Below the pieces are notes generated by a model, which was not told the origin of the DNA, did not search any database, and saw only the letters and a program-made list of their open reading frames with translations. DNA of 42,462 bases from positions 1 through 42,462 of the IMG/VR virus record IMGVR_UViG_3300021407_000024; one strand, written 5' to 3'. Source of the stretch: a virus. The stretch's first letter is position 1. Each line of letters starts with the position of its first letter. Shown here one piece after another: positions 23,538-38,381 of this stretch. Position numbers and translations under genes: made by a program.

Positions 23538-23861
23538 CTACTCCTCCTTGCGACGATTGCTGCCTCTCAGCTCGCGCGAAACAAGGGGGGAGGGTTCCGC
23601 TGCGCCTTGCCGGTCGAGCGGAGTGCCGATGATATCGATTCGACGCGGCGTCACCCGGTCCATGCCGAAGTCGGAATTATTGCCGCCGCGCAATGCGCCG
23701 GTGGGGCCGGCGCCGGGAGCGGTGCCCATACGCAAAGGCCCGGCGACTGAGAGATCGGATTTCGCAATCGTATCTGGATTGGCGAAGAATGCGGTCGGAG
23801 ACCGCCGCTCGGTTCCGTCCTCCCGGGTTCGTGGCCACGGCGCTTGGGTTTCCTTGGTCAT
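23538..23861 (-). CDS. hypothetical protein, Arg/Pro-rich, 107 aa
   Basis: A mostly disordered, Gly/Pro/Arg-rich protein starting MTKETQAPWPRTREDGTERR and ending in Arg, Lys and Glu. The ATG at 23861 overlaps the stop of the VRR-NUC gene as ATGA; the longer frame to 24149 is only a shadow of that gene. The overlap implies joint expression with the nuclease. No family is recognised. Confidence 0.6.
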   Translation of the reverse strand: MTKETQAPWPRTREDGTERRSPTAFFANPDTIAKSDLSVAGPLRMGTAPGAGPTGALRGGNNSDFGMDRVTPRRIDIIGTPLDRQGAAEPSPLVSRELRGSNRRKEE

Positions 23862-24232
23862 GCTGCGATCTCCACATGGCGAACCGGGAGGCTCGCCGCC
23901 CGCAATGCGGAAATCACCTCCTCGGGGTTGTGACAAACGTAAGTCATAACCCCGGCTCCCCGCAACAGCAGGATGCGCTGGCGCTGGACTTTGGAGAGCG
24001 CGCCGCCGGGAGCTTTCAGCTCCAGCATGGTGCAGCGGCCATTGAAGAAGATTTGGATATCGGGGAATCCGGCTTTCAATCCAGCCCCGTAGAGCCGGCC
24101 GGCGGTTGCCTTCGGGAGCTTGCCCCAGCCGGCCGGGAACGTCGTCCACAATGCCGGCGGCAGCAGCATCCAGTCGAGCAAATCGGCCACAGTCTTGTGG
24201 AGCTGAGATTCAGTGACCTTGAGCTGCGTCAC
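23858..24232 (-). CDS. VRR-NUC domain nuclease
   Basis: A 124-residue PD-(D/E)xK nuclease. The key residues are in GFPDI at 55-59 (Asp58), ELK at 71-73 and Gln83, in the VRR-NUC order E..QLH, then AGRLYGAGLKAGFPDI, then MLELKAPGGALS..Q. Standalone VRR-NUC proteins in phages may process Holliday junctions or packaging intermediates. The GTG at 24232 overlaps the stop of the preceding basic peptide (GTGA), which supports this start. Placement between tail and ejection genes is unusual for a nuclease and may hint at a packaging or ejection-linked role. Confidence 0.85.
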   Translation of the reverse strand: MTQLKVTESQLHKTVADLLDWMLLPPALWTTFPAGWGKLPKATAGRLYGAGLKAGFPDIQIFFNGRCTMLELKAPGGALSKVQRQRILLLRGAGVMTYVCHNPEEVISALRAASLPVRHVEIAA

Positions 24233-24399
24233 CGCCGGGCTCGCCGCACCGGGCCAGTACGCGCTCCGGGTCGAGGTGATCGCCCAGAGCGCTTACCGGT
24301 CAACCGAGTACGGCTCCAGTCACTCGGCCAAGCTCCGTCAGTCCATGGCTGTCTTGAAACCGGACCGGTACGGCCCGGTGATTTGCGTGAGCGAGCCAT
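24229..24399 (-). CDS. basic peptide 6 of tiny-gene array, 56 aa
   Basis: MARSRKSPGRTGPVSRQPWT is followed by a Trp-containing middle and then SGRSPRPGARTGPVRRARR. By count it has 14 Arg and 2 Lys in 56 residues. It has SPGRTGPV and RPGARTGPV, an internal near-repeat. It starts two bases after the TAA of the 12-codon frame and ends in TGA overlapping the VRR-NUC GTG. It would bind DNA or RNA, or pack internally (inference). Confidence 0.55.
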   Translation of the reverse strand: MARSRKSPGRTGPVSRQPWTDGAWPSDWSRTRLTGKRSGRSPRPGARTGPVRRARR

Positions 24400-24400
24400 T

Positions 24401-24439
24401 TTAGCGGCGTCCTAAGCGGCGCCTACCTCTGCGAGCCAT
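24401..24439 (-). CDS. basic micro-peptide 5, 12 aa
   Basis: MARRGRRRLGRR, seven Arg in 12 residues. A GGGAG six bases before the ATG lies in the end of the previous frame, and its TAA is two bases before the next ATG. It could be a true peptide or only a coupling device for the 56-residue frame. Its first residues resemble the start of that next peptide, MARSR. Confidence 0.4.
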   Translation of the reverse strand: MARRGRRRLGRR

Positions 24440-24441
24440 TG

Positions 24442-24618
24442 TCATCTCCCGCTGCGTCGCGAACGCCGATAGCGCTGTCCGCCGCCGTGCGGACTACACG
24501 CGCGGGTCTCGCGAGCGCGAAATCCGGGGGTGTTATGCCCGGTTCGTGGAGTGCGGGTTGGAAAACGGCCAGCAGGATCGACGCGAGAGCGCGGCCCAAG
24601 GTCAGTGCCTTTTGCCAC
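24442..24618 (-). CDS. basic peptide 4, 58 aa
   Basis: A GTG-start frame with AGGAGG five bases upstream, inside the end of peptide 3. It is Arg/Pro/Thr-rich (AGRFPTRTPRTGHNTPGFRA) and ends QRYRRSRRSGR. By count 14 Arg and 1 Lys in 58. A longer ATG frame from 24678 overlaps peptide 3 more heavily. The strong ribosome site favours the GTG. No family is recognised; protamine-like in composition. Confidence 0.5.
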   Translation of the reverse strand: MAKGTDLGPRSRVDPAGRFPTRTPRTGHNTPGFRARETRACSPHGGGQRYRRSRRSGR

Positions 24619-24737
24619 TACATCCTCCTGCCTTTGCGGTAGCTGAATAAACGCGGGCGCCATGATGGCGTCCGCCATTTCTTTACCTTGAGGGTTCTGC
24701 GCAAGTTGGCAGTATTGCGCGCCCCGTACTTCGGCAT
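24618..24737 (-). CDS. basic peptide 3, 39 aa
   Basis: MPKYGARNTANLRRTLKVKK is followed by WRTPSWRPRLFSYRKGRRM: 9 Arg and 5 Lys with four aromatic residues. The ATG immediately follows the TAG of peptide 2 in the same frame. There is no separate ribosome site, so reinitiation or readthrough would be needed. Its TAG overlaps the GTG of peptide 4 by one base. Confidence 0.55.
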   Translation of the reverse strand: MPKYGARNTANLRRTLKVKKWRTPSWRPRLFSYRKGRRM

Positions 24738-24818
24738 CTAGTGGCGCTTGTTTTTGCGCGCACGAATGCGCTTGGCCCTGCGAGTCATTTTCAGGGCCTT
24801 TGAGCGCTTACGGCGCAT
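24738..24818 (-). CDS. basic peptide 2, 26 aa
   Basis: MRRKRSKALKMTRRAKRIRA then RKNKRH. By count 9 Arg and 6 Lys in 26 residues, the most basic of the set and predicted helical. The ATG directly follows the TAG of peptide 1 in the same frame, with AGG just upstream. Its composition fits a protamine- or histone-tail-like nucleic acid binder. Confidence 0.6.
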   Translation of the reverse strand: MRRKRSKALKMTRRAKRIRARKNKRH

Positions 24819-24890
24819 CTACCTGCGTCCGCGACGATGCTTGCGGCGGCGGCGATTGGCTGTGAGTTCGTGATTGTCGAGGGCGTCCAT
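24819..24890 (-). CDS. basic peptide 1, 23 aa, first of array
   Basis: MDALDNHELTANRRRRKHRR then GRR, an acidic head and an Arg-rich tail (8 Arg, 1 Lys). It has a perfect AGGAGG site seven bases before the ATG, which shows the array is meant to be translated. It begins 91 bases after the end of the tail stabiliser gene; that 91-base gap contains no other frame I trust. Confidence 0.65.
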   Translation of the reverse strand: MDALDNHELTANRRRRKHRRGRR

Positions 24891-24981
24891 TTAGTTGCCT
24901 CCTGATAAGGGCAATGTGCGTTTTATAGCACCACCCGGATGAGAGCCGGTGCAGGATGATCCAACGAAACGCCATCGGTCG

Positions 24982-26655
24982 TCAAGCGCCCCACAGAGTA
25001 CGGTCCTCGACCATGACATGAAGGCGCTCGATGGTGAAATCCGGCGACAGCGATTGCATATCGACGGCGCCGGCAATGCCGGAAGCTTGCAGCGCGAACG
25101 GTTGCGTTGCGGTCGGGCGCGGCGTGTTGCTGACTCCAGTTCCCAGCACCGGCCCCGGAGTCAGATTGAATGATATTTCCTGGGTGCCGTTGGGAATGCC
25201 GCCGCCGATGGTGGAAAATCCGCCGACGAAATTAACGCCGGTGCCGATGTTGTCGGCAAAATCCAGAAACAGCCGTTTCCAGCTCTTGATCGTGAGTTGC
25301 GCGATCCCCTGACCGCGAATGTATTTGGTGGAGAGGATTTTCAGTAGATCGGGGTCGGGTTGAGCAAATAGTTGATACAGGCTGGTGCCATCGGTTCCGT
25401 AGGGCCTGATTATGCTGTCCTGTTCATAGGAACCGATGTTGGTCAGCTCGAAAATGCCGGCCGGCCCTTGGGTGGCGATTGACCAGAATTCGCCGCCCTG
25501 GCGCGGGTGCCACATCAGCAGAAGATTGCGCGTCAATCCATAAATATCGTTGAAGCGTCCGTTGCACAGCAGTACGCGAAACCCGAATATGGTTGCTTCC
25601 GCCATGGTCGGGTAATAGCCGCTGGTGTCGAGAGTGACGTAAATATTGGTCACCTTCTGACCGATTTCGCGGGTCTCGCCACCGCGCAGCTCGAAGATGC
25701 CGGCGCCGTTGAACATCTGCATGTAGCGGCCGACCCGACCAACCGGGCGCGGGAACCGGGAACCGACTTGCGGATCGACGTTGGTGTAAGCAAGGTTGGT
25801 GGTGAACGGACTTTCTGGAGTGCCGGACCCGCTCAGCACTACATTGTTGATAAGATCGATTGAGCTGTCGCCGAATACAAACAGATAGCCGGCGCTGGCC
25901 GCCAAATCCATGTAGCTGTAGGTCAGCCGGTCGCCGAAATAGCCGAATGAGCCGCCGCCGTCAGTGGTGGAAAAGTCGGCGCCGTTGGAAGGCGCGGAAA
26001 ACGAAATCACGTCCTTGCCGGCGACAAACAGGCGCGAGTTGTAGACCTCCATCGCATAGATTCCGGGTAATTCGGTCGGCATGAAAAATGGCACGCCCGG
26101 GGATTGCTCCAGGCCATCGGTCAGCCAATCCGGCGCCGGATCGCCCGGTGCGGAAAGGATCGAACCGTCCCAGGCGAACAGTCCGAGTGGAGAACCGAAC
26201 AAGACTCCGCCGCCCTGGCCCGACACGGCGCCGACAAAGCGCGGGCGCCAGACTTTGGCGCTGGCCCAATATTGCGGAGCGATTGGTTCCCAGACGATGG
26301 TGCCGGCGCCGCCGACATGAACGACAGCGCTGGTATCGAGGTCTACCTGATCAATGGTTCCGTCGCTTAGGAACATCCAGCCATAGGCGCCGGGGGGCGG
26401 GGCGCTGAACTGAGGCGTAGTATCGCCGATAAAGCCGAAAAATATACGCAAGATCGTCACGCCGGTGGGCGCGGTATAGATTGGCAGGCCACGGCCCCAG
26501 CAGGAACGCAAATTCCCGGGGCCAATCGCGAATAGATTTTCGTTCCACCATTGCTCGTCGTCGCCTATCGCGCCGCGCCCCGCTTGTTGATTGAGCCCGG
26601 CGATCCAATTTTCCCAAGTGTGCAGCTCTGGTGGATTCGCGCTTTGGATGGCCAT
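24982..26655 (-). CDS. tail stabiliser, P22 gp10-like
   Basis: A 557-residue beta-rich protein. The N-terminus (HTWENWIAGLNQQAGR) precedes repeated blades with motifs such as WRPRFVGAVSGQGGGVLFGS, MEVYNSRLFVAGKDVISFSA, YLFVFGDSSIDLI and MFNGAGIFELRGG, the look of a beta-propeller. Position after the adaptor matches P22 gp10 (472 aa), which plugs the portal-adaptor stack and holds packaged DNA. The assignment is by architecture and order. It starts four bases after the adaptor stop, with a weak ribosome site. Confidence 0.65.
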   Translation of the reverse strand: MAIQSANPPELHTWENWIAGLNQQAGRGAIGDDEQWWNENLFAIGPGNLRSCWGRGLPIYTAPTGVTILRIFFGFIGDTTPQFSAPPPGAYGWMFLSDGTIDQVDLDTSAVVHVGGAGTIVWEPIAPQYWASAKVWRPRFVGAVSGQGGGVLFGSPLGLFAWDGSILSAPGDPAPDWLTDGLEQSPGVPFFMPTELPGIYAMEVYNSRLFVAGKDVISFSAPSNGADFSTTDGGGSFGYFGDRLTYSYMDLAASAGYLFVFGDSSIDLINNVVLSGSGTPESPFTTNLAYTNVDPQVGSRFPRPVGRVGRYMQMFNGAGIFELRGGETREIGQKVTNIYVTLDTSGYYPTMAEATIFGFRVLLCNGRFNDIYGLTRNLLLMWHPRQGGEFWSIATQGPAGIFELTNIGSYEQDSIIRPYGTDGTSLYQLFAQPDPDLLKILSTKYIRGQGIAQLTIKSWKRLFLDFADNIGTGVNFVGGFSTIGGGIPNGTQEISFNLTPGPVLGTGVSNTPRPTATQPFALQASGIAGAVDMQSLSPDFTIERLHVMVEDRTLWGA

Positions 26656-35963: not shown

Positions 35964-36323
35964 TCAGGGCGTGCCAGGAGGCCCCTCGGGGCCAGCCGGG
36001 CCTTCCGGGCCTGTTTCCCCTTGTGGCCCCGCCGGTCCCGCTGGTCCAGCCGGTCCGGCTTCGCCTTGTGCCCCGGCCGGACCAGCCGGTCCTGCCGGGC
36101 CAGCCGGCCCCGCTGGTCCAGGCGGTCCAGGAGGGCCGGGTACGGGATCAGCTCCGGCTGTGCCAACGTAGCGCGCGCCGCCGTCCGCCCAGATATTGCC
36201 GACTTGATCCACCGCCAGCAGGCTAGTCGATAATCCGCCGACCGGCGCTGATGGCACCTCGGCCAGCTCGGCCGCTTCGTCTTCGTGCTCGTCTTGTTTG
36301 ACGTGCTTGGGTTTGCGGACCAT
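35964..36323 (-). CDS. collagen-like protein, 119 aa
   Basis: A charged N-terminal part ([20 protein letters not shown]) and a short beta segment ([20 protein letters not shown]) precede about 18 Gly-X-Y triplets, mostly GPA, GPP and GPE, that run to the C-terminus. It should form a trimeric rod. The start at 36323 overlaps the TerL stop by one base and has AGGAG eight bases upstream; a longer frame to 36479 is a TerL shadow. Probably a head or neck fibre. It is the second collagen-like protein in the genome. Confidence 0.75.
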
Positions 36324-38122
36324 TAGAACTTCTCCTTTCGGACCTGAGCTTTTTTGTTGATGCCGGCCATGTGCTGTGAGAATGCAAACGAAAGCATGGT
36401 GCCGATATTGGCCGGCGGCCGCTCGCCCTTGACCCGGTCCCAGGTGTGATTGCGGGCGACCAGCATCGGCCGGCGCCATTCGATCCAGGCATGATGCGCC
36501 AGAACCAGCGCCGACACCAAGTCGTCGTTCTCACCGGTGTCGGGGCCGGCGCCAATCCACCCCTCGTCCTCGATCACTGACTGCATCTGCGCCACCAGCG
36601 CCGGGGAGCGTATCTCCACCCGCCGCAGCATCAGGCTGTCGCGCAGCTCGCTGTAGGTCTGGTGCTTGTTGTCGAGGTTCGCTTTCCAGGCGATGACGTT
36701 TCCAGCGCCACCAAGAGTGTCGGGACGTTTGTACAGGAACCATCGGACGGCCCCGATCATGTTGAGAATGTTTTCTGATCCCGGCTCGCCCTGGATCATG
36801 CCGCGCTCGGCCAGCATGCGCAAGTTGCGGACTTCGGGCAGCACGGCAGCGCCGACCCCGGTCACCTCCAGATTGGCGATGTGATCGCGGTAGGCGCCGG
36901 CCAGATGCGCCAGCACCCAGGCGATTTGATAGGTCAGCGGTTTGTTGCTGCGGAATTCGGCGACTTGCACAACGCGATCAGCATAGCAGCGCATGACCTC
37001 AATCGCGTGATCGTCGCTATCGCCGCCACCGCCGCCGGAAGGGTCAACACCAATGCAATAAATGCCATTTGGTTCAGGCGGTTCCCAAACCTTGAGCATA
37101 GCCTCCTCGCGGTCATTGGTCGCCTCAATCCGGCTTTTCAGGAATTGTTCGTCGAACAGATACTTGTAGCCCTTGTAGGGCGGCCCGGATGGCGTCAGCA
37201 GCTCGGAGATTTCCAAGGTCCGTTGTGCCGGGAAGAACCCGCTGCCCGACGCGATGAAGCATTCTCTCTCGTGCCACGGGTAGTGGCGCAGCATGTACTC
37301 CTCGTGACGGAATTCGGCCTCCCTTCGCCACCATGCGATTTGCTCCGGTTTGATGATGTGACTGTACTGCTGTTTGACGTAGCGGGCGCGGGTGATTTCC
37401 GCCTCGGTCAGCTTGCCGTCGTCCCAATAGATTTTGAAATCAGGGTCCGACTTGGGAATGGCGTAAGTCGGATTGGCCCAGAAACCGATGAAGATAAACT
37501 TCATGTGTCGGTCTTGTTTGGCCTGCTGGCAGAAGTTGTAATACCAGTTGAATCCGTTGGCGATTGATTCCCAGACGTACAGCCGGCTTGGATTCTGTCG
37601 CGCCAGCGAGGCCTTGAGACTTTCCACCCCGGCCAGCGACTTCCACTGCGCGCATTCGGTCGCGTGCATCATGTTGAGGGCGCGCGAGGCGCCCAGGTCG
37701 GGATTGGAGGCAGCGGCCAGCAAGTCGATTACCGACCGATTGGCGAACGCCATGCCGTTGCGGTTGTTCTGAATCAGCTTGTGCTCGGGGGACCGCCATT
37801 CCGGGGGCAGGGTTTCGAGCAGGCTCGCAAAAATGCGCCGCAGCCTTTCAAGGTTGTCAGTGCGATCCGCAATGATAGCACCTTGCACTCCAGGATTAGC
37901 CAGCGCCCAAAATAGCTCGACAACGCTGCAAACCGTCGTGATGGCGACTTGTCGGCATTTGAGGACGACGAATTCGTGAACACCTTCATTCAAGCCCTTG
38001 GCAATGGCGTCGATGATCAGGCGTTGGGAAGGCCAGGGTTCGATCCTGGTCCTTCCGCCTTCTTTGGTGTCGATTTCGACACTGGTTAGGAGATCATAAA
38101 TCCCCTGTCTTACGGTTGGCAC
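36323..38122 (-). CDS. terL: terminase large subunit
   Basis: A 599-residue packaging motor and nuclease. The N-terminal ATPase has [10 protein letters not shown] at about 54-63, in the place of the usual Walker A or R-rich loop, and [10 protein letters not shown] (about 151-160) as Walker B. The C-terminal nuclease has [20 protein letters not shown] with the metal-binding Asp, and [16 protein letters not shown] with the late acidic cluster. The start is placed at GTG 38122 (GGGGAC six bases upstream); ATG 38167 has no ribosome site and would overlap the preceding gene by 74 bases. Confidence 0.95.
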
Positions 38123-38381
38123 TAGCGTCCCCAAAAGGCACGATGGCCGGCTTGGGTGCCGGGCCATAGCTATCGCCGTCCCGACGCACCCATCGTCCTG
38201 ACATGTACTCCTTGGAAGCCGCTTCGCGCAATTCGCGATTGGCTTGGATTTTGTGGAGCATTGACGTCGAATCTTCTGTCGCGGTTACCCCGGCCAGTTC
38301 CAGAGTGCGCAGCACGTCTTCAATCGCCAAGCCGACTTGGGCCAAGGTTGCGTAGATTTGCGCGAGAATCTTGTCGTCCAT
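38094..38381 (-). CDS. hypothetical, possible small terminase
   Basis: A 95-residue helical protein (MDDKILAQIYATLAQVGLAI, DVLRTLELAGVT, LHKIQANRELREAASKEYMS) ending in a polar Gly/Pro tail. It overlaps TerL and occupies the usual place of TerS, but I see no clear helix-turn-helix. AGGAG lies seven bases before the ATG, and a perfect stem lies 45 bases upstream. TerS is a reasonable but unproven guess. Confidence 0.6.
   Translation of the reverse strand: MDDKILAQIYATLAQVGLAIEDVLRTLELAGVTATEDSTSMLHKIQANRELREAASKEYMSGRWVRRDGDSYGPAPKPAIVPFGDASANRKTGDL

Follow-up and report, generated by a model that had tools for sequence, protein, structure and literature searches.

What six tiny, extremely basic reading frames are doing between a tail gene and a nuclease gene is the question raised by the viral DNA analysed here, a window of 42,462 nucleotides taken from IMG/VR virus record IMGVR_UViG_3300021407_000024. 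The frames lie on the minus strand at 24229-24890, comprise 23, 26, 39, 58, 12 and 56 codons, and are referred to below as peptides A to F (Table 1). Arginine and lysine make up 76 of their 214 residues, and the net charge counted over the six peptides is +68. A first-pass annotation had listed the frames with their codon counts, about 76 Arg or Lys residues in 214, the junctions between them and three ribosome-binding sites; the frames proved exact to the base, the residue count was equally exact, and the junctions and sites (AGGAGG before A and D, GGGAG before E) were found as described. We read the array as part of a late operon, a set of Arg-rich micropeptides that are probably unfolded and translated one by one, and whose genes keep a fixed order after the nozzle gene. 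Virion-packaged, protamine-like DNA-binding peptides would be the best explanation for it, and on balance we regard this reading as the probable one.

Table 1 Features of the micropeptide array and its neighbours in the window.
Feature	Position	Strand	Description	Basis or occurrence
Tail nozzle protein	24982..26655	-	557 aa, P22 gp10 / T7 gp12 type, directly upstream of array	AlphaFold and Foldseek
Shine-Dalgarno of A	24898..24903	-	AGGAGG	Sequence
Peptide A	24819..24890	-	23 aa, MDALDNHELTANRRRRKHRRGRR	Too simple for a profile
Peptide B (family B1)	24738..24818	-	26 aa, core MTRRA(R/K)RIRARK	61/68 loci
Peptide C	24618..24737	-	39 aa, NLRR..KPKSWRxPxWRPRLFSYRKGRR	67/68 loci
Shine-Dalgarno of D	24624..24629	-	AGGAGG, within 3' end of C	Sequence
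Peptide D	24442..24618	-	58 aa, GTG start, conserved MARGxxLGPRSRVDPAG head, variable basic tail	Overlaps C stop (TAGTG)
Shine-Dalgarno-like site of E	24446..24450	-	GGGAG	Sequence
Peptide E	24401..24439	-	12 aa, MARRGRRRLGRR	30-57 aa in some relatives
Peptide F	24229..24399	-	56 aa, GRTGPVxRxPWxDGAWPSDWSR...SPRPGARTGPVRxxRR	Profile: 54 IMG/VR loci; 65/68 loci
VRR-NUC nuclease	23858..24232	-	Start overlaps F stop (GTGA)	Pfam PF08774, E 7e-7
Protein T	23538..23861	-	107 aa, conserved GPLRxGTAPGxGPxGALR, after nuclease	Homolog past nozzle in 66/80 nozzle-selected loci

Organisation of the array and its genomic neighbourhood

The reading frames follow one another with almost no intervening sequence. 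A stop codon TAG directly abuts the next ATG at the A/B and B/C junctions, C and D share a single nucleotide in TAGTG, gaps of two bases and one base separate D from E and E from F, respectively, and the end of F overlaps the start of the nuclease gene in GTGA. Such junctions fit coupled re-initiation of translation. A single protein read through frameshifts was rejected as a candidate, since the junction offsets differ between genomes (-4, -1, 0, +1, +2, +9 and more).

Upstream, the array adjoins a gene whose product was modelled with AlphaFold at low confidence (mean pLDDT 51, pTM 0.56); this low-confidence model shares the fold of solved nozzle proteins. In Foldseek searches, phage nozzles topped both structure libraries, the best match being the PhiM1 nozzle 8vbx in the PDB (E 1.6e-6; also 7y22, T7 gp12) and a P22 gp10-type protein in BFVD (E 5.7e-12). 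The earlier placement of the array between a tail gene and a VRR-NUC nuclease is thereby borne out, the tail gene being the nozzle, and since this upstream gene is P22 gp10/T7 gp12-like, the array is part of a podovirus late operon. Farther upstream of the nozzle lie an SU10-type adaptor, a major head protein (phrog_9953) and a large terminase at 36323-38167, and the opposite end of the window carries a primase/helicase, a YqaJ exonuclease and an endolysin. Downstream, the array is followed by the VRR-NUC nuclease, by protein T, which has no match in Pfam or PHROGs, and by large Gly/Ala/Ser/Gln-rich proteins. By position and composition, the latter sit where T7-like phages encode core or ejection proteins.

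Conservation of the array among relatives

The window comes from an IMG/VR virus record, and its relatives were found among IMG/VR contigs. Queries with the nuclease and the nozzle returned 8 and 17 loci, respectively, with the same kind of array at the nozzle-query loci, and profile searches returned 54 loci for peptide F and 68 for peptide D. One relative, 3300021475_000061, encodes nozzle, nuclease and F proteins identical to those of the window, and is therefore taken to be this phage or one almost identical to it. An unbiased test was obtained by picking loci with the nozzle profile alone (n = 80), of which 71 had at least 1000 bases downstream. A basic array occupied the same place in all 71, with a median tiling charge of +69 and a minimum of +35, compared with a median of +4, a 95th percentile of +22 and a maximum of +40 in background stretches of 900 bases. 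The lowest score belongs to L229, in which extra sequence stretches the array; L085 comes from the same contig.

Across this group of uncultivated short-tailed phages, the array consists of roughly four to eight genes, each about 12-60 codons long, and the usual order in the D-selected loci is (A)-B-C-D-(E)-F-nuclease-(G). A census of these 68 loci recorded D in 68, C in 67, F in 65, B1 in 61, G in 31, B2 in 18, A2 in 8 and E in 7, and in most relatives the first ORF of the array is a poly-Arg equivalent of peptide A. Among the members that diverge most (L221, L222, L226, L231 and L214), peptide D and mostly also C and F have drifted beyond profile recognition; nozzle identity is 50-56% in L226, L231, L221 and L222. 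Yet these arrays still carry +60 to +68, and wherever D or F is unrecognisable, the array charge remains about +55 to +70. This retention of charge despite the divergence of D, C and F fits selection on charge. Over 404 array ORFs, Arg and Lys form 37% of residues and the Arg share of basic residues is 0.87, and 51% of the distinct array peptides start with MAR, compared with 0/317 long genes; both the 404-ORF statistics and the MAR count derive from a chain search that favoured charge and partly ribosome-binding sites. The common MAR start hints at duplication or at a shared N-terminal role.

The peptides of family G, found in 31 of the 68 relatives, were not seen in the window. They are basic, 24-28 aa long, carry the motif AARRNLRKARxxxRRK, and are encoded downstream of the nuclease position, as in L138 (6977-7064) and L143 (6711-6789). 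Their matches in PHROGs are weak (E 0.02-0.1) and fall in families of no assigned function.

Evidence that the reading frames are genes

GC-rich DNA readily gives rise to frames dense in arginine, and the array could in principle reflect Arg codons that occur by accident, or conservation of an RNA, rather than proteins. When B, C, D, F and G were aligned by codon, pS came to 0.64-0.75 and pN to 0.23-0.37; the values for the neighbouring nuclease were 0.67 and 0.34, respectively. For peptide B, the window and L012 differ with a pS of 0.62 and a pN of 0.02, while pN/pS is 0.52 for peptide C and 0.39 for peptide F. Synonymous changes thus far exceed replacement changes in these very frames. Because the chain search itself favoured charge and partly ribosome-binding sites, the enrichment of overlaps and ribosome-binding sites is quoted from the fixed start of D. 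At 51 of the 65 unique loci, this start overlaps the preceding stop by one nucleotide (6.5% for other ATG/GTG codons), and at 64 of them it is preceded by a Shine-Dalgarno motif (background 9.4%). The basic-short-ORF tiling score of the window array is +56, above all of 500 Markov-1 simulations (mean 7, maximum 36), and makes the array the highest-scoring stretch of the window, the runner-up reaching 42.

The low pN relative to pS, together with the D overlaps and the conserved Shine-Dalgarno sites, indicates that the frames are selected as proteins, and judged from these alignments, B, C, D, F and G are under purifying selection. Chance frames in GC-rich DNA and conserved RNA, to which we give hardly any credence, are ruled out by the excess of synonymous change, the 71/71 loci and the simulations; the conserved start-stop overlaps and Shine-Dalgarno sites likewise count against them. 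The first-pass annotation had spoken of a deliberately translated set, to be abandoned if relatives lacked conserved frames or AGGAGG sites. Both frames and Shine-Dalgarno sites are conserved, and the sequence evidence of conservation, coupling and ribosome-binding sites strongly supports that description.

Searches for homologues and hosts

Peptides A, B, C, D and F had no match in Pfam up to E 1, and none in PHROGs up to E 1 or 10 except for one F member, which matched a family of no assigned function at E 0.49. PDB searches with B, C, D and F gave no meaningful match, and structure prediction for F yielded no fold. Among GenBank phages, no homolog of B, D or F was found, and matches to C were at chance level (E 3-7). 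Cultured relatives of the phage are confined to MW202825/MW202753, whose capsid protein is 35% identical, and a few weaker matches. Neither peptide D nor the nozzle, each searched in 84,980 prokaryote species genomes, revealed a prophage or integrated copy, and since both are absent from these genomes, the lineage is probably strictly lytic. A search for independent arrays with a strict CGN-only Arg junction pattern returned 7 loci, all put down to chance; the window itself lacks a related junction pattern, and the search is hence too strict to exclude other arrays. The earlier remark that no phage system of this form had been described agrees with the open-access literature searched, in which we found no description of such arrays; most subscription papers fall outside that scope.

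Four to eight genes as short as these, about 12-60 codons each, can thus sit in a late operon of such a phage without any match in family libraries. Since these libraries return no match, and protamine-like analogues are named in the literature (PMC3281028), the array may work like known protamine-like proteins while being a member of no known family.

Comparison with known basic virion proteins

One close likeness is to adenovirus proteins VII and X (mu), which are small, Arg-rich, protamine-like proteins condensing a viral dsDNA genome. Adenovirus dsDNA measures about 26-48 kb, and is accompanied by 500-800 copies of VII and 100-300 copies of the mature, 19-aa mu (PMC7998265). The peptides of the window are likewise small, strongly basic and Arg-rich (76/214), but have no sequence homology to the adenovirus-type core in Pfam (up to E 1) and no meaningful match in the PDB. 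Furthermore, adenoviruses employ two or three proteins, and a protease releases mu from a precursor, whereas the phage array comprises four to eight separate genes and sits in a tailed phage with terminase packaging. Small Arg-rich protamine-like proteins occur in adenoviruses, asfarviruses and baculoviruses (PMC3281028). Baculovirus P6.9 and related proteins of eukaryotic dsDNA viruses are small, Arg-rich and condense DNA in the virion, but each is encoded by a single gene in a eukaryotic virus and shows no sequence match to the phage array.

Among phages, the J protein of Microviridae is a tiny basic protein entering the head with the DNA. It belongs to ssDNA phages, is the product of a single gene and binds the capsid through its C-terminus, whereas the array peptides have no sequence match to J or to any Pfam family, and the window encodes a large terminase, a tailed-phage head protein and a nozzle. 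In podovirus late operons, the nozzle gene is followed by T7 genes 13-16, which encode internal core or ejection proteins. These share the operon place of the array but are mostly large proteins, and none is a basic micropeptide.

The T4 internal proteins IPI, IPII and IPIII are also basic phage head proteins, present at about 300 copies each and binding DNA at low salt (PMC9026906). They are roughly 8-20 kDa in size, with a capsid-targeting propeptide and at least in IPI an anti-restriction function, whereas the array peptides are roughly 1.5-7 kDa, and A, B, C, D and F matched no T4 internal protein family in PHROGs.

Possible functions of the array peptides

In tailed phages, ions and polyamines rather than proteins are held to neutralise the packaged genome. 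According to the literature, nothing indicates that basic proteins take a large share in offsetting the charge of phage dsDNA, and the tightly packed DNA offers them scant space (PMC3281028); phages with packaging motors are set apart as lacking Arg arms (PMC7096446). Since basic-protein neutralisation of tailed-phage DNA is thus denied, the array is a surprising finding, and a protamine-like micropeptide operon conserved throughout a group of phages would depart from the ion and polyamine rule.

Nucleic-acid condensation and an internal virion location agree with the composition, operon position and turnover pattern of the peptides as read from the genomes. The Arg share of 0.87 in the arrays represents the same Arg bias as reported for viral nucleic-acid-packing segments (PMC7096446). 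The peptides would be produced in large amounts late in infection and reach the head ahead of the DNA or together with it, where their arginines would bind the packaged genome, part of which could be neutralised or condensed as by adenovirus VII and X. With +68 per set, and if each peptide were as abundant as the capsid protein (415 copies, assuming T=7), the array could balance 33% of the 84,924 phosphates in the genome. It could further be speculated that a head or core protein serves as docking partner for the conserved, less basic segments in D (LGPRSRVDPAG) and in F (PWSDGAWPSDWSR). As the array adjoins the place of the T7 core/ejection genes, the peptides could also exit with the DNA at ejection.

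Besides the published view, two observations count against this reading. In MW202825, the closest relative in GenBank whose capsid and nozzle are related, the array is missing from that place, and specific sequence motifs are kept in B, C, D and F, so charge is not the whole story. The array might instead encode capsid-binding structural peptides: D and F would belong to the head or tail in a minor role, as cement or core, their basic tails only lining the inner wall, with the smaller peptides as accessories. The conserved head and variable basic tail of D (92% versus 51% column identity) and the invariant W/D/P core and repeated GxxGPVR motif of F are in line with such a role, but it leaves the near-pure poly-Arg peptides A, B and E unexplained, and we consider it highly improbable.

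The main rivals to packaged DNA-binding peptides are ejected effectors of the T4 internal-protein type and late proteins acting outside the virion. Ejected effectors would be packed at low copy and travel with the DNA into the new host, there to shield it from nucleases, displace the host nucleoid or bind RNA or ribosomes. Several distinct peptides with conserved motifs, gained and lost between genomes, resemble an arms-race cassette, and T4 internal proteins are basic and ejected into the host, where IPI inhibits restriction, while their genes are not highly conserved (PMC9026906). Unlike such variable sets, B, C, D and F occur in nearly every member (61-68 of 68), and outside the cores of D and F there is almost no non-basic content, making effectors an unlikely, if serious, explanation.

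Alternatively, the peptides could act in the infected cell on mRNA, ribosomes or replicating DNA, or serve as scaffold-like assembly factors that do not stay in the particle. Operon position alone is no proof of virion location, and the core of peptide B presumably resembles short Arg-rich RNA-binding segments. A PDB search with the B profile was empty up to E 10, a weak test as many such peptides have fewer than 20 residues, and so many different basic peptides would be unexpected for one regulatory task; a role outside the virion thus seems somewhat less likely again than ejected effectors.

If the peptides do coat packaged DNA, the phages would form a tailed, motor-packaged dsDNA lineage in which at least five different, coupled protamine-like micropeptides organise the packaged genome into a nucleoprotein. 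Virion chromatin of this kind is, to our knowledge, not known in tailed phages, and we hold it to be a real possibility that falls just short of an even chance.

Other reading frames near the array

A further basic ORF of 53 codons (23838-23677, minus strand) lies in another frame inside gene T (23861-23538). Its start is ATG in 50 of 59 relatives, compared with 17 expected from codon use and with 8% in front of the remaining Trp codons; in 48 of the 59 (25 expected), no stop interrupts the frame for at least 35 codons. Since the ORF is short in 11/59 and the synonymous diversity of T is only slightly lower there (0.55 versus 0.59), a hidden gene overlapping T is only possible. Finally, in some relatives, such as L023 (~700-1100 bases past the nozzle end), the array is kept and the nuclease position is occupied by an ORF without the VRR-NUC motif searched for, which looks like a different protein.
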